Shown piece after piece: positions 1 to 9,638 of a stretch of 45,136 bases of DNA; position 1 is the first letter of the stretch; every line of letters starts with the position of its first letter. Below the pieces are notes generated by a model that worked only from the letters and a program-made list of their open reading frames with translations, ran no database searches and had not been told where the DNA came from. The position numbers and the translations under genes were made by a program. Source of the stretch: a virus; IMG/VR virus record IMGVR_UViG_3300032323_001184, positions 1 through 45,136 of that record. One strand, given 5' to 3'.

Positions 1-224
1 CTGCAAAAACAGTAACTATTCCAACTAACGCCAACGTAGCCTATCCAGTAGGAACCACTATCGATATCATTCAAACTGGAACTGGTCAGGTAACTATTGC
101 TGGAGCAGTTGGAGTAACTGTGAACGCAACCCCTGGTCTAAAACTTAGAACCCAATGGTCCTCTGCTACACTACTCAAGAGAGCCACAGACACTTGGTTA
201 GTATTTGGTGACTTGACAGCGTAA
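1..224 (+). CDS. Tail fibre/appendage protein, C-terminal fragment
   Basis: The gene enters from the left edge and is open in the frame that ends with TAA at 222-224, giving about 73 residues. It contains TIPTNANVAYPVGTTIDIIQ, then QVTIAGAVGVTVNATPG, and it ends near WLVFGDLTA. This pattern, in which a beta-rich segment follows the words P-VGT-I-IIQ-G-GQVTI, is a recurrent C-terminal module of phage tail-fibre and appendage proteins in aquatic phages. I recognise it from that family but cannot name the gene. It lies 15 bp upstream of the next structural gene on the same strand, so the two are probably co-transcribed. The start is outside the window. Confidence 0.75.
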   Translation, partial: AKTVTIPTNANVAYPVGTTIDIIQTGTGQVTIAGAVGVTVNATPGLKLRTQWSSATLLKRATDTWLVFGDLTA

Positions 225-239
225 TACGGGAGAAATTAG

Positions 240-956
240 ATGTCCAAAAGAGCAGGAAGAAAGTCGCAACAACAAAACGACTTTCTACAGCCATCAGCGC
301 CAACTAGCGTATCCGCTACTGACGTCGGAACTGGTAGGGCGTTTGGAAACGCTGCCGCTACTGTTTCCTTTTCACTACCAGGCGGCTCACCAGCAGCGAC
401 TATTTATTACGTAACTTCCGACCCAGGTAGCATAACCGTAAACGGCACGTCTTCTCCAATTACGGTAAATGGACTTAGTTCGAACACTGCTTACACTTTT
501 ACAGTAATTGCTGGAAACACTAGCGGAAACTCGTCTCCGTCTTCTCCATCTAGTTCTATTACAGCAACCACTGTTCCAGCGGCCCCATCAGCCCCCACCG
601 CATCTTCCTCGGTTGCCGACCAAGACTCGGTAACTTGGTCACCACCTGCAGACGGTGGAAAAGCAATCAGTACCTATTTTTGGCAGTGCGATGACGGCAA
701 GAGCGGTTCAACGGCTTCTACGTCAGTAACCGTAACCCAAGAAGGTGCGGGAAACTCTACCAATGCTTATAGAGTTTTGGCACAAAACGCCAACGGAAAC
801 TCTACTTTCTCTGCTTACTCTAATTCTGTGGATACAGTGGCACCATTTTTCCCGCCGTTCTTCCCACCGTTCTTCCCGCCATTTTTCCCACCATATTTTG
901 CTCCGCCATTTTTCCCGCCTTTCTTTCCACCATATTTTCCAGGCGTGTTTGAGTAA
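240..956 (+). CDS. Fibronectin-III tail appendage protein with PFFP repeat tail
   Basis: This 238-residue protein starts at ATG 240 behind a clear GGGAG ribosome site. Residues 1-15 are basic. Two fibronectin type III-like domains follow, at about 18-112 and 115-200, with typical words such as NGLSSNTAYTFTVIA and VTWSPPADGG. Residues 202-234 are a low-complexity tail of Pro-Phe-Phe-Pro units that ends in PGVFE. FN3 domains on phage structural proteins are thought to bind carbohydrate or host surface, so a virion adhesion or fibre-tip role is likely but inferred. The only other PFFPPFFP run in the window is in the Ig-like tail protein at 28752-30926 on the opposite strand. The gene sits directly upstream of the oxygenase operon, which suggests its Pro-rich tail as a possible substrate. 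Confidence 0.8.
   Translation: MSKRAGRKSQQQNDFLQPSAPTSVSATDVGTGRAFGNAAATVSFSLPGGSPAATIYYVTSDPGSITVNGTSSPITVNGLSSNTAYTFTVIAGNTSGNSSPSSPSSSITATTVPAAPSAPTASSSVADQDSVTWSPPADGGKAISTYFWQCDDGKSGSTASTSVTVTQEGAGNSTNAYRVLAQNANGNSTFSAYSNSVDTVAPFFPPFFPPFFPPFFPPYFAPPFFPPFFPPYFPGVFE
843..941 (+). repeat. Degenerate 12-bp tandem repeat encoding Pro-Phe-Phe-Pro
   Basis: In-frame copies of CCN-TTY-TTY-CCN run from 843 to 941 with a 12-nt period. Phe is replaced by Tyr in two places and one Pro by Ala. Third codon positions vary between copies (ccg, cca, cct; ttt, ttc), so the peptide is being conserved rather than the DNA simply slipping. Confidence 0.85.
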
Positions 957-1012
957 TCATTAAAATTTAGTTTTTGTGATAGCATTTTTTCATCCAACAA
1001 GACGGAGTAAAA

Positions 1013-1723
1013 ATGGACAAATCAGATATTGAAACTCAAAGTCAAAGAATCCAAGATTATTATAAAATTGAAGAGCAGACTTGGTCTTCCGTAGAAGAAC
1101 TTGGATTTGGCATATATGTTTATAGAGACGTAATTCCAGAGTCTTTAGAAGTTGCTAAAAGACTGGAAGATGTAATTCTCAATCCAGATATTAAGTATTC
1201 CTATCAAGAAGCCTTAGTTGGCTATAAACAAAAGATGCCAGAATACCGCGACTGCTACGACTTCAAGATTAAAAAATCAGACTTAGCGCGAGACACTAGC
1301 GACGCCTCTATAAAACTACAATCACTCTGGCAAGATGTTTACGACCGACAAATCAATCCATTAAAGGACTACTCACGTCGACTAAACATCGGCGAACTCC
1401 GCTACTGGGAAGCGATGAACTTCATCAAATACGAGAAGAATCAGCACTTTATGGAGCATCACGACCACGGCTACTCATATAACTGCGTAGTTTCGATGGT
1501 TGCTTATCCAAACGATGACTATGAAGGCGGAGAACTTTACTTTAGATTGCTAAATCTAAAAATTAAGCCTCGCGCTGGAGACTTGTATATTTTCCCATCG
1601 AACTTTATGTATCCGCATCAAGCGATGCCAGTTACTAGTGGCACTAAGTATTCGATTGTCACCATGACCGACTACTCAGACAAGTACCACAAGCCAGAGT
1701 TTCTTACTGAAACAGGAAGTTAA
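1013..1723 (+). CDS. Prolyl-4-hydroxylase-like 2OG-Fe(II) oxygenase (first of four)
   Basis: This 236-residue protein starts at ATG 1013 with GGAG 9 nt upstream. It has the double-stranded beta-helix core of the Fe(II)/2-oxoglutarate dioxygenases of the prolyl-4-hydroxylase type. The iron ligands are H149-x-D151 (in MEHHDHG) and the distal H202 (in YPHQAMP). K212 (SGTKYSIV) is in the position that binds the 2-oxoglutarate carboxylate. The signature NDDYEGGELYF, shared by all four paralogues here, lies at about 167-177. Such enzymes couple 2-oxoglutarate decarboxylation to hydroxylation of a peptide side chain or small molecule, and the substrate cannot be read from sequence. The stop codon overlaps the next start as TAATG, indicating translational coupling. 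This copy may have its own promoter in the 56-bp gap at 957-1012, but I see no convincing boxes. Confidence 0.88.
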   Translation: MDKSDIETQSQRIQDYYKIEEQTWSSVEELGFGIYVYRDVIPESLEVAKRLEDVILNPDIKYSYQEALVGYKQKMPEYRDCYDFKIKKSDLARDTSDASIKLQSLWQDVYDRQINPLKDYSRRLNIGELRYWEAMNFIKYEKNQHFMEHHDHGYSYNCVVSMVAYPNDDYEGGELYFRLLNLKIKPRAGDLYIFPSNFMYPHQAMPVTSGTKYSIVTMTDYSDKYHKPEFLTETGS

Positions 1724-2445
1724 TGCCAGAAATAAAGGTGCTAAGGGCAGACACAGGAAAAGAAGCATCAGACATAAGGCAACTACCAGTTACTAGAGAC
1801 TGGATGGACGCCACTGACATTAAACACGCTTACCATTGCTTTCCCATAACCCTCACCAACCGAATGGGCTGGGGTATTTCATTTCCCGAAGACATAACCT
1901 TTATTTGGGACGGCATATCCAACTCATCTGGCGAGCATGTAAAGATTTTGTCTGGTAGCCAATACTGCTCAACTAATAGAAGAAATGCCACAATAAGTTT
2001 TCACTGCAACCTGTATTTTAAGACAGATGAAAATACAACTATGTTGGTTATGCCAGTGCCTAATCAATTTATTGATGGTGTCCAGTGCTTCACTACACTA
2101 ATTAGCACTTCTTTTTTAAACAGTGAACTTCCCCTTGCTTGGAGAATAACTAGACCTAACGTTGAAATAACTATTCCAGCAGGAACGCCCGTAGCATCAG
2201 TGATTCCTATGTCAGTTAGTAATTTAGAAACTTACGAAATTGTAGTCGAAGATGCTAATTTCACCGAAGAGCACTGGGACGCAAAAAGAAAATACGGAAA
2301 CGCAGTTCATCAACACAACTTTCAAGGCGAATGGTCAAATTTCTATAAAAACGCCACTGACGAAAATCGTGTGAAGATTGGTAGCCACGAAGTCAAAAAC
2401 ATAAATCTAAAGACTACGGACAACACTAAGAATGCCAGAAATTAA
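1723..2445 (+). CDS. Unknown protein, first of two related (DUF6065-like)
   Basis: This 240-residue protein is coupled to the oxygenase before it (TAATG) and overlaps the next gene by 14 bp. It opens with MPEIKVLRADTG and has an all-beta look, with words such as FPITLTNRMGWGISFP, FIWDGI, ISFHCNLYFKTD and the turn TIPAGTPVASVIPM. The next gene has equivalents of several of these (MPEIKF, ITWKG-like, VLPAGTPYAQLIPF), so the two are distant homologues. I believe this matches the family of unknown function DUF6065, but that is from memory and not checked. The PAGTP-A-IP turn resembles cupin-like or dUTPase-like beta-barrels. Its position between oxygenases suggests a partner or accessory role in the same modification pathway. 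No catalytic residues are evident. Confidence 0.72.
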   Translation: MPEIKVLRADTGKEASDIRQLPVTRDWMDATDIKHAYHCFPITLTNRMGWGISFPEDITFIWDGISNSSGEHVKILSGSQYCSTNRRNATISFHCNLYFKTDENTTMLVMPVPNQFIDGVQCFTTLISTSFLNSELPLAWRITRPNVEITIPAGTPVASVIPMSVSNLETYEIVVEDANFTEEHWDAKRKYGNAVHQHNFQGEWSNFYKNATDENRVKIGSHEVKNINLKTTDNTKNARN

Positions 2446-3160
2446 ATTTATATCGAACCGACCTTGGTTGGACGAAAATAGCATTTCAAAGCCAGAGCCA
2501 GTTATAAAAACCATACCTGAGTGGTATAAAAATGCTGACCGAAACTACAAACATCCGCACACAGGTGAAGATTTTATTGGACAAGACGGCGGAAAGATTG
2601 TCACTTGGAAGGGCTGTCCTGCCATCTACGACGTTATGGGCTCTGGTTATGTTTACAAAACCCCCTGCGACATAGAGTTTTTTATTGACGAAAAAGACAA
2701 CCCAGACGTAAGAGTTAGCGACCCTAACTATCAAGATTTTTGCACAAAAAGAGACCCCCTACCTCAATTTAGACACCCAGACGGTTACTCAGAACAGCAC
2801 TTTGCTTGGTGGGCTGATTGGGCAGTAGAAGTCCCAGAAGGCTACAGTGTTCTCTACACCACTCCGCTAAACAGATACGAGTTGCCGTTCATCACCACTA
2901 ACGGAATTATTGACAACGATAAGGTAAATCTGCCCGGAACAATGCCATTCTTTCTAATCAAAGGTTTTACAGGAGTCCTACCTGCTGGAACTCCATACGC
3001 CCAACTAATCCCCTTCAAAAGAGAAAATTGGGAATCAAGTGTTATAATCGAACCAGCAGAGTTGCTATACGAAAAAAATATGGATAACGCCAAGAAATAT
3101 AGAGTCCCCAACGGTGGCGTTTATCAAAGAGAAGTCTGGGAGAGAAGGACATACAAATAA
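2432..3160 (+). CDS. Unknown protein, second of two related
   Basis: This 242-residue protein starts at ATG 2432, inside the end of the previous gene. It begins MPEIKFISNRPWLDENS and contains KTIPEWYKNADR, a phrase typical of phage proteins annotated as hypothetical beside 2OG-Fe(II) oxygenases. It also has GKIVTWKGCPAIYDVMGSG and VLPAGTPYAQLIPFKRENW. The C-terminal beta-turn matches that of its upstream neighbour, so the pair looks like a tandem duplication that has diverged. It ends in TAATG coupling with the next oxygenase. It could bind the small-molecule or peptide substrate of the oxygenases, but nothing in the sequence proves a function. No signal peptide or membrane segment is visible. 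Confidence 0.72.
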   Translation: MPEIKFISNRPWLDENSISKPEPVIKTIPEWYKNADRNYKHPHTGEDFIGQDGGKIVTWKGCPAIYDVMGSGYVYKTPCDIEFFIDEKDNPDVRVSDPNYQDFCTKRDPLPQFRHPDGYSEQHFAWWADWAVEVPEGYSVLYTTPLNRYELPFITTNGIIDNDKVNLPGTMPFFLIKGFTGVLPAGTPYAQLIPFKRENWESSVIIEPAELLYEKNMDNAKKYRVPNGGVYQREVWERRTYK

Positions 3161-3825
3161 TGCAAGATGTGACAAACAACGAGCAGGAAAAGCCAGTTTC
3201 CATAACTCCGTCTGGATTTTTTGGGGATTCTAAAGACAACATCGTTGAGTTAGAAAACTTTATGACTGAAGAAGAGCATAGGACTTTGCTCGACTTCATT
3301 AGAACCAACGAGGCTTGGGACAAAACCGAGACCCACTACAACGAAGACGGAGTGGTTATTTATGAGTCAGAGTATTGGAAAGACCGAGTAGCAACTGGCA
3401 GAACTTTGTATGATGCTAACCCAGAGATTCCAAAAATAATTGACACTTTGGTTGCCAGACTTAAGCCGATAATCCAAGATTTCTTTAAAGTCGAGGCTAA
3501 CCCCACCAGCCCAGCGATGGTTAGATGGTTGCCAGGTCAATTCCAGCACCCACACGCCGACAAAGAATTGCACGAAGGCGACAATCGAGGAAAGCCAAAT
3601 GACTTTCCTTATTACGATTTGGCAAGTCTTTTCTACATAAATGACGACTACGTCGGTGGAGAACTTTATTTTCCACTACAAGGCATAACTATCAAGCCCA
3701 AGCCACGCGCCGCATACTTTTTTCCAGGCGATATGAATTACGTTCACGGAGTAACAAAGATTGAGTCTGGTATTAGATATACCTGCCCGTTTTTCTGGCA
3801 CATAACTAAGCACAGGGGAGAGTAA
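3160..3825 (+). CDS. Prolyl-4-hydroxylase-like 2OG-Fe(II) oxygenase (second)
   Basis: This 221-residue protein is translationally coupled on both sides (TAATG at 3160 and 3825). The metal-binding residues are H132-x-D134 (QHPHADKE) and H196 (NYVHGVTK), with R206 (SGIRYTC) as the 2-oxoglutarate anchor. The family word NDDYVGGELYFP lies at 161-172, followed by a GITIKPKPRAAYFFPG strand pair typical of P4H catalytic domains. An N-terminal stretch (about 25-110) with LENFMTEEEHRTLLDFI is the usual helical lead-in. All residues for catalysis are present, so the enzyme should be active. The target is unknown; peptidyl proline is the family default. Confidence 0.88.
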   Translation: MQDVTNNEQEKPVSITPSGFFGDSKDNIVELENFMTEEEHRTLLDFIRTNEAWDKTETHYNEDGVVIYESEYWKDRVATGRTLYDANPEIPKIIDTLVARLKPIIQDFFKVEANPTSPAMVRWLPGQFQHPHADKELHEGDNRGKPNDFPYYDLASLFYINDDYVGGELYFPLQGITIKPKPRAAYFFPGDMNYVHGVTKIESGIRYTCPFFWHITKHRGE

Positions 3826-5240
3826 TGGAAACTGTAGTTTTTAAGCACGACATAGTTGGCTATAAGAACTTTGTCCCCAAAGAAGACATACAAAAAATAA
3901 TTGACTACTTTGAGTCAATGGGACATCTTTGGAACGACGTTGCGTTTTTTGAATCCTACGGGATGGGAATTTCACCGATTGACAAGTTAGCCACTAACTA
4001 CGGGCTAACAGAAAACTACTTCGGAGACATCAAAAGTAGATATCAAAGTGCTGTGGAAGAAACCCACGGGAGAGCAGTTAGACCGAACACTTCTCACGCT
4101 CAAAAATGGGAAGTCGGAGCGTACGCCAACCCGCACTCAGACAACTCAGACCACGATGGCAACCCTAATGCTTTTGAAATCAATAAGTATGTTGGAATTC
4201 TTTATTTGAACGACAACTACGAAGGCGGAGAACTTTACTTTCCTGACCACGGCATCAGCATTAGACCAGAGGCTGGGATGTTTATAACTTTTCCAGGTGG
4301 ACACGAAAACATTCACGGCGTAACCGAGATAACTAGTGGCACCAGATACACAATGGTTTCTTTTTGGGACTACGCAGATGCCGAGTATTCGGAAGAGCGT
4401 AAAGCCGAGTGGGAAGAGGAAATCAAAAAAGTAAGAGAGCAACAGGCTGAGCAAAAGGAAAGAAACGAAAAAGAAAAAGCCCTAAAGCCTATAAAAGAAG
4501 TTCAGTCTGGTGAAAAAAGAATCTATTTCCTACATATCCAAAAAACTGGTGGCAGAGAACTAAAGCAAAGACTCGTCTATGATGACCGCATACTTGGGAG
4601 CCACCTATCAGGGCATAAAGAATCGCCTTTCGAGGTCGAGCATTTTGGGTTTAGTTCAGAAAAAATTACAAAAAACTCTTATGTATTTACAACTTTAAGA
4701 GACCCGATAGCCCGAGGAATTAGCCAGTATTGCCACTTAATCTGCTTAGACCCCAACGGACTTCTAAAATCAGATGAACAAATAGACCAGTCGTTACTCA
4801 CATTTGATAAAGCGTGGGACTACTTTGTGTCCAGAAAAAACTTTGGAAAATTTATGACCATTAGTTTGTTTGAAGACGGGGTTGACAATATAAACAAAGC
4901 AGTAGATTCAGAATATGACTACTACAAAACTCCAGCCGAGATAGACGCACAACTCGCTAAGTTCAACAAAATAATAAAACTAGAAGAATTTTCACAAGAA
5001 AAATTTGCCATCTTGAGAGAAGAACTCCACTACTACATAGGCACTGAAGACACTTATCCAGATGTATTAGATGTAAATGACACAAATCACTACAATAAAA
5101 GCCTAAAAAACCACCCACCAGAAGTATTCACTAATAAATACTCTAAGGAACTATACGAATCTTTGACCGAAGAGCAGTTAGAGCAACTAAGAAACTACTT
5201 TGAGTTTGATTACTACGTATACAGTAAGACTAATTTTTAA
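3825..5240 (+). CDS. 2OG-Fe(II) oxygenase fused to a sulfotransferase
   Basis: This 471-residue protein has two domains. Residues 1-182 form a P4H-like oxygenase with H104-x-D106, H164 and R174, and the NDNYEGGELYFP word at 129-140. Residues 185-225 form a charged helical, probably coiled-coil, linker rich in Glu and Lys. Residues 230-471 form a sulfotransferase of the kind that uses PAPS. FLHIQKTGGREL (235-246) matches the 5'-phosphosulfate loop and TTLRDPIARGISQY (289-302) matches the 3'-phosphate-binding loop. Sulfotransferases move sulfate from PAPS to a hydroxyl or amine, so a hydroxylase on the same chain could make the acceptor hydroxyl. That coupling is inference. The gene follows its neighbour with TAATG overlap. 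Full reading frame with no frameshift. Confidence 0.87.
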   Translation: METVVFKHDIVGYKNFVPKEDIQKIIDYFESMGHLWNDVAFFESYGMGISPIDKLATNYGLTENYFGDIKSRYQSAVEETHGRAVRPNTSHAQKWEVGAYANPHSDNSDHDGNPNAFEINKYVGILYLNDNYEGGELYFPDHGISIRPEAGMFITFPGGHENIHGVTEITSGTRYTMVSFWDYADAEYSEERKAEWEEEIKKVREQQAEQKERNEKEKALKPIKEVQSGEKRIYFLHIQKTGGRELKQRLVYDDRILGSHLSGHKESPFEVEHFGFSSEKITKNSYVFTTLRDPIARGISQYCHLICLDPNGLLKSDEQIDQSLLTFDKAWDYFVSRKNFGKFMTISLFEDGVDNINKAVDSEYDYYKTPAEIDAQLAKFNKIIKLEEFSQEKFAILREELHYYIGTEDTYPDVLDVNDTNHYNKSLKNHPPEVFTNKYSKELYESLTEEQLEQLRNYFEFDYYVYSKTNF

Positions 5241-5248
5241 GGATAAAG

Positions 5249-5845
5249 ATGCCTAATTTAGAAGTTTTTGCAGACAAGATTTTCTACTACAAAAATGTAA
5301 TAGTAAATTGTAAAGAATTAGTAGATTTGCTAGAACAAATCCAACCAACTTTAGGCGAAGGTAATTTACTTACCCAGTGGGAGCATTGGACTGCATCAGA
5401 CGATAAAGACTTTCACCTAGGTTGGAAAATGAGTACTAACTCAAAGATGTATGACGTTGCTACGGTAGACGCCAAACTTATCTACGACATTTTTTACACT
5501 TCACTACTGTTTGTCGGCAACGACTACGCTAGAAAAAACGGTCTCGGCATATCTAAACCAAGTGCGCTAAGTATTTCTAAGTACGCAGAAGGCTCCAGCA
5601 TGGGGGAACACGTAGATGATTACGGCGACAACCCAAGAGTAAAACCGATTATGTCAGCGGTTCTTTACCTAAACGACGAATATGAAGGCGGGGAACTACA
5701 CTTCGAATATCAAGGTGTCACCATAAAGCCAGAGGCTGGAAGCGTAGTAATTTTTCCGTCAGTAGAGCCGTTCTACCACGAATCTCGACCAATCGTATCT
5801 GGCAATAAATATATGTGTCCAGCGTTTTGGAGAGAAATAGTCTAA
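5249..5845 (+). CDS. Prolyl-4-hydroxylase-like 2OG-Fe(II) oxygenase (fourth)
   Basis: This 198-residue protein starts at ATG 5249 behind AAGGAT, 8 bp after the previous stop. It has H121-x-D123 (GEHVDDYG), H177 (FYHESR) and K187 (GNKYMCP), plus NDEYEGGELHF at 142-152. It is the shortest and most divergent of the four paralogues, with its own N-terminal helical half. The catalytic set is complete. It ends the oxygenase operon. Its stop codon overlaps by 4 bp the end of a convergent small gene on the other strand. Confidence 0.87.
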   Translation: MPNLEVFADKIFYYKNVIVNCKELVDLLEQIQPTLGEGNLLTQWEHWTASDDKDFHLGWKMSTNSKMYDVATVDAKLIYDIFYTSLLFVGNDYARKNGLGISKPSALSISKYAEGSSMGEHVDDYGDNPRVKPIMSAVLYLNDEYEGGELHFEYQGVTIKPEAGSVVIFPSVEPFYHESRPIVSGNKYMCPAFWREIV

Positions 5846-6079: not shown

Positions 6080-7183
6080 ATGACAGAAGACTGGAAACCG
6101 CTAAAACGCTCGGACACACCGCTTACTTCTAAGGTAGAGATGGACGAGATTACTAGCGAATTGATTCGCCCCTTCGACTACCAATCAGATGGAACTGAAG
6201 AGTTCTATCCATACCTGCTTCCAGAAGACCTGCCAAAGTCTTGGGGAATTGGCGTAATCGTGGGCGCTTCTGGCACTGGTAAATCTAAACTTCTTGCTCA
6301 GTTTGATGGCGAGATAACACCAAAGCCACAGTGGAAGCACGAAATGTCTATCGCTTCTCACTTTGATAACTCTGTAGACGCTAGTGAAAAACTTTCTGCT
6401 GCTGGGCTTATGTCAGTGCCAGAGTGGGTAAAACCATACTCAGTCCTATCTAATGGACAACAATTTAGAGCAGACCTAGCACGCTCACTTCACGACTTCG
6501 CGCACATCGACGAGTTCACTTCTGTTATTGATAGAAACGTTGCTAAGGCTGCTTCTAATGCCGTGGCTAGATACGTAAGAAAAAACGAGATTGAAGGTAT
6601 CGTGTTGGCAACTTGCCACCGAGACATTCTTGAATACTTGGAGCCAGACTGGATTATCGACACTGACCGTGGCGAGTGGACGTCTGGGAGGTATCTTCGG
6701 CGACCTGAATTGGTACTCGAAATTCATCCTTGCTCAAACCAGATTTGGCAACACTTCGCTCAATATCACTATCTCTCCGAATCGCTCAACAAAAGCGCAC
6801 GATGCTATTTGGGCGTCTGGGACGGACAAGTAGTAGGTTTTGTTGCGACTATGGCATATCCATCTGGCACAGTGCAGAACTCATTTAGAGAGCATCGCCT
6901 AGTAATCCACCCTGACTACCAAGGGCTTGGGCTAGGACCTAAACTATCTGAAGCCGTTGCTCAGCACTACATTGATAACGGCAAGCGTTATTTCTCAAAG
7001 ACTAGCCACCCCCGACTAGGTGGATACCGAGACCAGTCGACTGTTTGGAAGCCTACGTCTAAGAACCATATGAAACGTCCAGACGGCTCGGACAACAAAC
7101 GCATAATGCGCTGGCAGATAGACCCTAACCGCTGGAGTTATTCTCACGAATACATAGGCAACAGTCAGTGTAAAATTATATAA
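6080..7183 (+). CDS. ABC-type ATPase fused to a GNAT acetyltransferase domain
   Basis: This is a 367-residue, two-domain protein. Residues 50-205 are an ABC-class ATPase with Walker A GASGTGKS (62-69), a signature-like LSNGQQFRADLARSL (123-137), Walker B ending HIDEFTS (142-148) and a switch His in TCHRD (H180). Residues 215-345 are a GNAT fold, with YLGVWDGQVVGFVATMAYP (243-261) and the acetyl-CoA loop EHRLVIHPDYQGLGLG (271-286). The architecture resembles the ABC-ATPase/acetyltransferase class known as COG2401. The GNAT half, with HYLSESL near 230 and a Pro-rich tail, also recalls Mom-type GNAT enzymes that modify phage DNA bases. Either protein or nucleic acid could be the target. It has no ribosome site and probably uses the promoter at 6038-6065. 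Confidence 0.8.
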   Translation: MTEDWKPLKRSDTPLTSKVEMDEITSELIRPFDYQSDGTEEFYPYLLPEDLPKSWGIGVIVGASGTGKSKLLAQFDGEITPKPQWKHEMSIASHFDNSVDASEKLSAAGLMSVPEWVKPYSVLSNGQQFRADLARSLHDFAHIDEFTSVIDRNVAKAASNAVARYVRKNEIEGIVLATCHRDILEYLEPDWIIDTDRGEWTSGRYLRRPELVLEIHPCSNQIWQHFAQYHYLSESLNKSARCYLGVWDGQVVGFVATMAYPSGTVQNSFREHRLVIHPDYQGLGLGPKLSEAVAQHYIDNGKRYFSKTSHPRLGGYRDQSTVWKPTSKNHMKRPDGSDNKRIMRWQIDPNRWSYSHEYIGNSQCKII

Positions 7184-7205: not shown

Positions 7206-9638
7206 ATGATTAATGATGGCGCTAATAAAGGGGCTTGGCGTCGCCAACTAAGAGACCGACTCGGCAAATGGGTAGAGATGTATGGTCCAGTGAAATTTGA
7301 CATACAAATTCCGGGGGTAAAAAATAAGTCAATTGGCTATGGAATATTTATAGGCAGCGACCGCTATGGCTGGTCAAAGATTCGAGTAGACGATGATAAA
7401 TATATCCCTAAGGGTGTCTACGAAATAGAGAATAAATACATTACTGGCGTAAAGGCAGTAATCGGTTTGGACGTGTCAAAATCTAAAGCAACCGAACAGC
7501 CCAAGGCAAAACCACTACTCAAAGAGATTACTGGCGAGCAAGCACTAGTAGAAATAAAAAAATCGATTGCCAAATACACTAAAAGTCAAGGAAGATTTCC
7601 TATTGCTAGAAATCAAAACGACGTAACGCAAGCAGCCAAAACTCAGTATCAGTCTATATTTCCGCAAATGAAGGCCGAGTACCCAGAACTAATGTCAAAA
7701 TACAAAACTCCAGAAGAGTTTTGGGAAGGCATAAAGGTTTACGGACTCCGCACCAATGACAGATGGGCAAATAGCGTTGATGATATAGACCCAATGAATA
7801 AGGCTTTAAATAAAGTTTATGCTAGGGATATTTTAGGTCTAGACCCAGAAAACGGACTTATTACTTACTACAGAAACTCGATAAATCATCACAACGATTT
7901 AGCCACTGCTGCCGCTGGTTATCTATCCCTAGATAGCAGAATGGCTTGGGACTACAACTCTTACCTTAGTAAGTATCCAAACAGCCTTACTCCATTTGAT
8001 GGTCGTTACAAAGTTAAAGTAAAGCCAAGTGAAGTAATTGGTCTTATTGGTTTTTCTAATATGCAAGATGAGTATGCAGTAGTAGTAGGTCCTGACGTAA
8101 CTTCTCTACCAAACCGTGCCGAACGAGTCGGTGACTTAGAAATACAAAAGCCCACAGATTGGATTGACGACAGCAATACGTTCGATAGGACTAATGGAGG
8201 CAGTCCTTGGAGAAATTTCAGCACACTATCTAATTTTGATTATTATCCATTGGAATCTGACCCATTGCCAGGTGAATCTTTCTCTGACTTTAGAACTGGG
8301 TTAGGTCTGCCAGACGACGCAATATCAAAAAAGTATCAAGAACTTTATGGAAAAGATATCAATGAAGCCCTAAGTAAGGCTGGTATGAGGGGCGGGCTAT
8401 ACCAAGGTCTACAATCAATGTTTATAAAATTTAAGGGGCAGGACGGTAAAGATTATTGGGGTCTAGACCCTAGAGTATTAGACCAAAGATATAGATATCG
8501 CGGTGGTGGCAACATTGAAGTAGCAGAGGACGATGGCTATGACGTAGCAATCAAGGTGTTATCTACAATCCAAGAACTTATAGGGAAACCATTTATGGTC
8601 AACCGTGGGCACGATATGTCTGACCCTAGGTTGGAAGACGCTCCTAATGTATTACCTGCCGTCGAGCCAACTGTTGAAGAAAAAGATTCGACTAACTCAA
8701 ACTTTAAAGATTTAGCAAAAGAAATGAATTCTTGGAAACCGACTAATGAAATACCCGAACCAGCAAGGAATGGTGGCGGTATGACAGCAAAAACTTGGTG
8801 GGCGTGGGAAGTCGGTCCTGACGGCAATCAATATATTGACTATATGCGCCAACAAGCGTGTGCGTTAACTGGATTACCTGTGCCAACAACGGATTACGAC
8901 CCAGGGGGTTCTTCAGCGTTTTACCTTGAACGAGGCTGGGGTGCGCCGAATCAGAATGCCATAGCCGGTATGGTGAACTCGATAGAGCGTTCTGGCAAGC
9001 AACCAGAACTTTGGCGCGGTGTTTCTGTCAAAGACGAAGAATATGCGGCGTTGCTTGCCAATTTGAAATCTGGTGATGTTATGGATATGCCGTTAGTTTC
9101 CACTAGCCGCAGCCTTGGCGTGGCGCAATGGTACGCAAACGAGCGCACAACTGGCGAACCTGTGCTTATGCGTATCGAGGCTGGTGCTAACGGTACCTCT
9201 CCAGGTGAGAAATCTTATTACAAAACAGATTATGAAACAGTTATCAACGGCAAATTTGAAGTTGTCAGTAATGATATTGTGGAAACAAGTTATTGGTCAC
9301 GCGCGAGTGTCAGTATTGAAGGTGGACCTGGTCAATTTGGCCGTTATGATGCTGACAGAAACTGGGTTCCCAACGAAAACCCTGTTGGCTGGGTAGGACC
9401 AAACAGCGCAAATGAACCTGATAACGCAACAGTTTACGAAATTTATAAATACGCTCGCGACGGTGGTACAGATTTCTCGCGTTTCGACACAGATAAAACA
9501 AAATATACAATAAACGCCGCTTCCCCAGGGTTTAAAAACAACAGAATAACTTTGCACCAATGGGATGTCAAAGAACCGCGCGGTATGCGTATTATTACGC
9601 TACGCCAAAAAGAAGTATATAAGGTGGAAAATAAATGA
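7206..9638 (+). CDS. Large protein with C-terminal ADP-ribosyltransferase domain
   Basis: This 810-residue protein starts at ATG 7206. The N-terminus has RDRLGKWVEMYGPVKF, a motif I associate with actinophage proteins that accompany MuF or capsid genes. The middle (about 100-500) is unassigned. Residues about 540-810 match ADP-ribosyltransferases of the exotoxin (R-S-E) type: R604 in LWRGVSV, S632-T-S634 in STSRS, and E677 in DYETVING, followed by the strand GKFEVVS. Such enzymes transfer ADP-ribose from NAD+ to protein, as T4 Alt and Mod do to host targets. Arginine codons change sharply along the gene: about 16 AGA/AGG to 11 CGN before 8820, but 2 to 14 after it. The transferase part therefore looks acquired. 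The stop overlaps the next start (ATGA). Confidence 0.78.
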   Translation: MINDGANKGAWRRQLRDRLGKWVEMYGPVKFDIQIPGVKNKSIGYGIFIGSDRYGWSKIRVDDDKYIPKGVYEIENKYITGVKAVIGLDVSKSKATEQPKAKPLLKEITGEQALVEIKKSIAKYTKSQGRFPIARNQNDVTQAAKTQYQSIFPQMKAEYPELMSKYKTPEEFWEGIKVYGLRTNDRWANSVDDIDPMNKALNKVYARDILGLDPENGLITYYRNSINHHNDLATAAAGYLSLDSRMAWDYNSYLSKYPNSLTPFDGRYKVKVKPSEVIGLIGFSNMQDEYAVVVGPDVTSLPNRAERVGDLEIQKPTDWIDDSNTFDRTNGGSPWRNFSTLSNFDYYPLESDPLPGESFSDFRTGLGLPDDAISKKYQELYGKDINEALSKAGMRGGLYQGLQSMFIKFKGQDGKDYWGLDPRVLDQRYRYRGGGNIEVAEDDGYDVAIKVLSTIQELIGKPFMVNRGHDMSDPRLEDAPNVLPAVEPTVEEKDSTNSNFKDLAKEMNSWKPTNEIPEPARNGGGMTAKTWWAWEVGPDGNQYIDYMRQQACALTGLPVPTTDYDPGGSSAFYLERGWGAPNQNAIAGMVNSIERSGKQPELWRGVSVKDEEYAALLANLKSGDVMDMPLVSTSRSLGVAQWYANERTTGEPVLMRIEAGANGTSPGEKSYYKTDYETVINGKFEVVSNDIVETSYWSRASVSIEGGPGQFGRYDADRNWVPNENPVGWVGPNSANEPDNATVYEIYKYARDGGTDFSRFDTDKTKYTINAASPGFKNNRITLHQWDVKEPRGMRIITLRQKEVYKVENK

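Follow-up and report, generated by a model that had tools for sequence, protein, structure and literature searches.

Why would a phage carry a row of prolyl hydroxylases directly behind a gene for a tail protein? The question is raised by IMG/VR virus record IMGVR_UViG_3300032323_001184 (45,136 bases; this whole stretch of DNA is hereafter the window). Near its start, four genes for prolyl 4-hydroxylase (P4H)-type 2-oxoglutarate (2OG)-Fe(II) oxygenases follow a gene whose product ends in Pro-Phe-Phe-Pro (PFFP) repeats. A survey of the Baltic virome placed a prolyl-hydroxylase gene among the most abundant viral auxiliary genes, with a viral use that 'remains cryptic' (PMC9301287), and a 2026 Phold study found human-prolyl-hydroxylase-like proteins to be abundant and widespread in phages and named no substrate (PMC12774648). 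The locus described here offers such viral enzymes a concrete candidate substrate, one that is physically linked and testable. The P4H-like set almost certainly belongs with the PFFP repeat: the module is real and conserved, and its three parts, the repeat, the P4H array and DUF6065 genes, are strictly linked. Linkage and predicted fold together make prolyl hydroxylation of the Pro-aromatic tail the probable function of the cassette.

The presumed substrate is a 238-aa fn3-domain tail protein (240..956; Pfam fn3, 4.6e-11), which has weak matches to tail PHROGs. Its C-terminal sequence is APFFPPFFPPFFPPFFPPYFAPPFFPPFFPPYFPGVFE; the (PFFP)n array, read from the sequence, begins at base 843 (843..953). 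After 56 bases come P4H1 (1013..1723; PF13640, 7e-14), a DUF6065 protein that is a conserved partner in the cassette (1723..2445; PF19541, 1.1e-32), a DUF6065-like paralogue (2432..3160; phrog_7084, 1.4e-34), P4H2 (3160..3825; PF13640, 1e-5), P4H3 fused to a Sulfotransfer_2 domain (3825..5240; PF13640, 3.6e-9; PF03567, 1.5e-5) and P4H4 (5249..5845; PF13640, 2.4e-12). All lie on the + strand, and neighbouring genes of the cluster overlap by 1-14 bases or stand 8 bases apart. Open reading frames (ORFs), Pfam matches and motifs confirm the original prediction of a PFFP-ended protein followed by four complete P4H-type oxygenases, one of them fused to a sulfotransferase. That prediction also counted four genes in the operon; the four oxygenases are there, but the operon has six genes, the interleaved pair at 1723-2445 and 2432-3160 having been overlooked. 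The arrangement is not a matter of chance, because it recurs in dozens of divergent contigs.

We collected IMG/VR loci related to the P4H3 fusion, to the PFFP protein and to a non-Pro homologue, and added contigs picked up by a PFFPPFFP DNA pattern or by one for FGxFGxFGxFG. The fn3 tail protein has 356 relatives in IMG/VR. For the locus counts in this family, duplicates were removed, at least 6 kb of downstream sequence was required, and P4H genes were counted on the same strand within 7 kb. A Pro-aromatic tail ends 87 of the 120 homologues analysed; across loci its aromatic position varies (F, Y, H) and Pro is constant. Behind 85 of these 87 tails stand 4-8 P4H genes, the nearest lying a median of 103 bases away, whereas three or more are found behind none of the 33 non-Pro tails (FGAFGA, FSPFGV, FTPFG, YNFYNY). 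Near the 32 FG-type loci we counted no P4H gene in 12 cases, one in 17 and two in 3, and the remaining non-Pro locus has none. The P4Hs near non-Pro tails are also more distant from the four in the window (median 70 bits, versus 147 bits near Pro tails). The contrast holds in the sets that were not ascertained on P4H (cluster at 38/40 Pro versus 0/30 non-Pro tails), and the two exceptions, L270 and L313, each contain a second Pro-aromatic copy that does have a cluster. The genes keep their order, as in 1d1D24334 and 11Dd234, where digits give the nearest P4H of the window. The number of P4H genes correlates weakly with the number of prolines (rho 0.30, without phylogenetic correction). The upstream tail fibre is kept in both tail types; only the cassette differs. 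The co-occurrence of P4H genes and PFFP repeats that the original prediction proposed to look for is thus, across IMG/VR, that of a conserved module.

Several lines of linkage lie outside the fn3 family. A short PASTA-like tail protein, unrelated to fn3, nearly always ends in a PHFP or PFFP tail; P4H genes are in view at 28/28 of its loci and DUF6065-family genes at most of them; the loci lacking the latter mainly have short flanks. Loci of the L145 type have yet another N-terminus and the same cassette. Where DUF6065-anchored loci have enough upstream sequence, all 39 of 39 hold a Pro-aromatic ORF together with three or more P4Hs; by the same criterion, a Pro-aromatic ORF was found at 8 of 110 control loci. 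Among P4H3-anchored clusters with upstream sequence, 42/44 have the Pro-aromatic ORF; the other two, L035 and L057, are contigs that start inside the cluster. The original prediction named frequent occurrence of the operon in phages without a Pro-rich structural protein as evidence against itself; by these last figures the specific module did not turn up without a Pro-aromatic ORF. P4H-like genes as a family are, by contrast, common in cyanophages that have no PFFP array. PFFP-pattern contigs without a cluster at their own locus carry P4H genes on the full contig in 36 of 41 cases, mostly 5-12 of them. FG-repeat contigs of other families have a P4H in 2/50 cases, and PFFPPFFP occurs in 0/30 non-Pro fn3 contigs. 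The specific cassette predicts a Pro-rich tail; the enzyme family as such does not.

What kind of enzymes are these? The active-site residues HxD...H...K/R are present in all four (HHD/H/K, HAD/H/R, HSD/H/R and HVD/H/K, in order), and all four exceed the curated cut-off of PF13640 (2OG-FeII_Oxy_3), P4H2 marginally (26.9 bits in hmmscan, where the cut-off is 27, but 28.3 bits and over the cut-off in another search). Among complete P4H domains of relatives, 1122/1237 satisfy a strict catalytic pattern; the domains we inspected outside it retain the metal ligands and mostly have DG instead of GG. The nearest solved chains to P4H1 are Bacillus anthracis P4H (1.7e-7), then lysyl hydroxylases and P3H1. 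Structure modelling among the P4Hs covered P4H3, whose domain was modelled with high confidence (blocks mostly >90). Its top 50 PDB matches consist entirely of prolyl hydroxylases, among them PBCV-1 vCPH, B. anthracis P4H, PHD2 and P3H1, with template modelling (TM) scores on the target mostly 0.5-0.7. By PF13640, triad and the P4H3 fold, these proteins are of the prolyl-hydroxylase group, and activity on peptidyl proline is predicted.

DUF6065 is tied to the P4H/PFFP pair just as strictly as the P4Hs themselves are: 85/87 Pro loci have its gene cluster, against 0/33 among the non-Pro loci. The protein at 1723-2445 scores 113.9 bits against PF19541 (curated cut-off 26.6). The paralogue at 2432-3160 has no PF19541 match; its family, phrog_7084, is present at 76/87 Pro loci and 15/33 non-Pro loci. 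A DUF6065 model (predicted local distance difference test score, pLDDT, 89.7) weakly resembles dUTPase (query TM score ~0.4, ~10% identity). In the consensus an AGTP motif is conserved and a dUTPase motif of the GxIDxDYxG type was not found. Judging by the model, DUF6065 is likely a dUTPase-fold protein lacking evident dUTPase motifs. Bacterial neighbourhoods add nothing here: DUF6065 matched 0/198 genomes of one phylum, with matches only in the Caulobacter control. In the haloviruses HRTV-7 and HJTV-3 (L548, L549), tailed viruses of haloarchaea, a DUF6065-like homologue lies near baseplate genes, in HJTV-3 also close to putative adhesin and tail-fibre genes. These homologues suggest a wider tail-related role for DUF6065-like proteins.

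The original prediction went on to have the phage hydroxylate, and then sulfate or glycosylate, its own Pro-rich tail. Hydroxylation is what the linkage (85/87 versus 0/33; 39/39), the PASTA-type tails and the P4H fold argue strongly for. The further steps fare poorly. The sulfotransferase half of the P4H3 fusion scores 25.7 bits against a PF03567 cut-off of 22, the motifs HIQKTGG and RDPIARGISQY for binding 3'-phosphoadenosine 5'-phosphosulfate can be read in it, and its structure model is of low confidence. The fusion is limited to five contigs, the window and its close relatives L005, L006, L007 and L009, and we therefore rejected the sulfotransferase as a core part of the cassette. The core gene set at Pro loci includes no glycosyltransferase family. 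Sulfation in the small clade of the window is speculative.

The gene upstream of the PFFP gene bears on what else the enzymes might act on. A partial ORF (3..224, + strand), cut at its 5' end by the window edge, encodes the C-terminal 73 aa of a tail-fibre protein and matches the end of the L006 tail fibre, a collagen-containing protein of 1643 aa. In other relatives the upstream gene has Mtd_N (PF18454, the N-terminal domain of the major tropism determinant) at its start and tail-fibre PHROG matches. The upstream gene is a tail fibre in relatives, and the PFFP protein is therefore encoded directly after a tail fibre. With such a neighbour, the P4Hs could act on a collagen-like (Gly-X-Y) fibre, much as those of Bacillus and of chloroviruses use collagen-like peptides, the PFFP protein being a bystander. 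L006, a relative of the window, has its collagen-repeat fibre directly upstream, and the closest solved relatives of the enzymes use collagen-like substrates. B. anthracis P4H acts on such substrates and accepts Gly-Pro-Thr, of which the L006 fibre is full. However, at least ten Gly-X-Y triplets within 8 kb occur at only 7/42 Pro-tail loci with enough flank (0/25 non-Pro), their prolines stand at X and practically never at Y, and the cassette persists where collagen is absent. On these counts we rejected collagen as the general substrate and think it quite unlikely that the PFFP protein is a bystander. In the clade to which the window belongs, collagen-like fibres may serve as an additional substrate; the L006 fibre there has 53 X-position prolines.

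The oxygenases might instead belong to a tail and host-range block, modifying a small molecule, a glycan or lipid on the host surface or another tail protein, with the PFFP repeat hitch-hiking inside a single recombining tail module that travels as a unit. A single switch of tail type on the fn3 tree would fit this, as would related oxygenases near tail genes of cyanophages that lack PFFP. We nevertheless consider it unlikely: the same cassette stands behind N-terminal domains that are unrelated (PASTA, L145) and have nothing but the Pro-aromatic tail in common, the nearest folds are prolyl hydroxylases, and the tail fibre common to both tail types leaves the cassette alone to differ. The enzymes adjoin the tail gene, and the repeat contains as much Phe as Pro, so aromatic residues or the fn3/Ig domain could be hydroxylated in place of proline. 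This we regard as very improbable, for the non-Pro homologues keep fn3 and a Phe/Tyr-rich tail and lack the cassette, and the aromatic positions vary to Tyr and His. We know of no peptidyl Phe hydroxylation by a P4H fold.

Hydroxylation of the Pro-aromatic tail has its own difficulties, and the following weigh against it or limit the evidence. A tree built from 115 fn3 domains shows a single change of tail type, with the 32 non-Pro rows in one group. The contrast between Pro and non-Pro tails is therefore one evolutionary event and not 120 independent ones, and the Fisher p value (2e-17) overstates independence because of this single switch. Five of the 41 PFFP contigs show no P4H in the sequence covered, and scattered P4Hs are found on 31/42 non-Pro fn3 contigs. 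T4-like cyanophages carry 8-13 PF13640 genes and no PFFP array; together with the non-Pro fn3 contigs, they indicate that the P4H family has other roles. Among 50,697 phage isolate records, fn3-PFFP, PASTA-PFFP and DUF6065 proteins have no match; no isolate carries the module, which limits the evidence. Finally, as cited in PMC7019647 (ref. 162), amino acid analysis found no hydroxyproline in PBCV-1 particles.

How might hydroxylation of the tail work? The phage would make a small protein, associated with the tail fibre, that has a flexible C-terminal Pro-aromatic array. The P4H paralogues encoded directly downstream would hydroxylate many of the array's prolines before or during virion assembly, drawing on host 2OG, Fe(II) and O2. 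Several paralogues may be needed because prolines stand in several settings within the array: in Pro-Pro pairs, and preceding or following a pair of aromatics. DUF6065 would be an obligatory partner, perhaps presenting or organising the substrate, and the product would be a stiff, sticky adhesive tail rich in hydroxyproline and aromatics. We infer the repeat as substrate, the sites, stereochemistry and timing of hydroxylation, and the adhesive role. A bolder version is possible but rather doubtful as a whole: phage tail appendages of a class not described so far, adhesives of hydroxyproline and aromatics with one proline register per P4H paralogue and the dUTPase-fold DUF6065 as a new kind of factor that organises the substrate or modifies hydroxyproline, the FGA, FSPFGV and YNFYNY tails being alternative adhesive chemistries made through other downstream genes. 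Plant extensins and mussel adhesive proteins are Pro/aromatic repeat proteins that become adhesive or stiff by prolyl hydroxylation in the eukaryotic secretory pathway. We offer them as an analogy for how the PFFP tail may work and claim no sequence relation.

Two other features of the tail proteins were seen. In L314, tandem fn3 tail homologues (7923-8729 and 8765-9610) have an aromatic-rich, adhesive-looking tail, YNFYNFYNYSNFYN, and no P4H cluster. Many tail proteins of both types have a C-terminal domain after the repeat, which in L215, L205, L237, L235 and L221 resembles a self-cleaving domain of the Hint/intein type (in L237, Intein_splicing 1.7e-4 and Hint_2 0.0037, both under the Pfam cut-offs).

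Among known systems, PBCV-1 vCPH (PDB 5c5t) is likewise a virus-encoded P4H fold and one of the best fold matches to P4H3. The solved vCPH, from an algal virus, is one enzyme, whereas the cassette has 4-8 paralogues behind a Pro-aromatic tail gene with DUF6065 in a tailed phage. The PBCV-1 enzyme is active on peptides, and Eriksson et al. (1999; cited in PMC9301287 and PMC7019647), to judge by the title, treat peptide substrates in viral proteins. B. anthracis P4H (PDB 3itq, 5hv0), the closest solved sequence to P4H1, has the same active-site set; it is a single chromosomal gene, unlike the phage array with its non-collagen repeats. The phrog_61 oxygenases of T4-like cyanophages (P-RSM4, S-RIM50, S-SCSM1) are of the same superfamily, 8-13 per genome and some beside tail-fibre genes, and share 25-41% identity with part of P4H3. 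They come without a PFFP array and are mostly dispersed through the genome in P-RSM4, S-RIM50 and ACG-2014b, whereas those of the window are clustered. In Synechococcus phage S-SCSM1 (L665, 213,879-219,702), which has no PFFP repeats, three 2OG oxygenases follow at a short distance behind a gene for a short tail fibre; this phage is a possible cultured system for a substrate search. On our best reading, the locus is a dedicated multi-enzyme cassette for hydroxylating the prolines of a non-collagen, Pro-aromatic phage tail, with workings like those of the PBCV-1 and Bacillus P4H systems; what is new is the architecture and the DUF6065 partner. A literature search, with most subscription papers outside its scope, found no paper on PFFP tails, DUF6065 or phage tail hydroxylation.

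The rest of the window includes genes for tail and connector proteins, a DNA polymerase and WhiB. Its DNA polymerase is 70% identical to that of Actinomycetia phage DSL-LC01 and 59-63% to those of Microbacterium phages, a similarity that suggests an actinobacterial host, and the carriers of the module are a family of uncultured, probably actinobacterial phages. DSL-LC01, the nearest isolate by DNA polymerase, has no PF13640. A scan of genome contigs returned only weak fn3-type similarity, mostly in Paenibacillus. Downstream of the cassette, 6080-7183 encodes an ATPase-like N-terminus fused to a GNAT acetyltransferase (phrog_11143, 5e-105), found in this place at only four Pro-tail loci. The 810-aa protein encoded at 7206-9638 has no Pfam or PHROG match, and its C-terminal part (YRGVS...STS...) reads as ADP-ribosyltransferase-like. 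In DSL-LC01 (L552, OQ999401.1, 101,148-126,390) several collagen-like genes lie next to a glycosyltransferase gene and one annotated as tryptophan halogenase, which may be a further case of a modification enzyme beside repeat-rich tail proteins.

The locus comes with a natural control: where a homologous tail has no Pro, the cassette is missing. If tail hydroxylation is real, these phages run a multi-enzyme post-translational modification of their own receptor-binding apparatus, a rare case of virus-run protein modification on the virus's own adhesive tail. DUF6065 would gain its first functional context, and adsorption would be coupled to host oxygen and 2OG.

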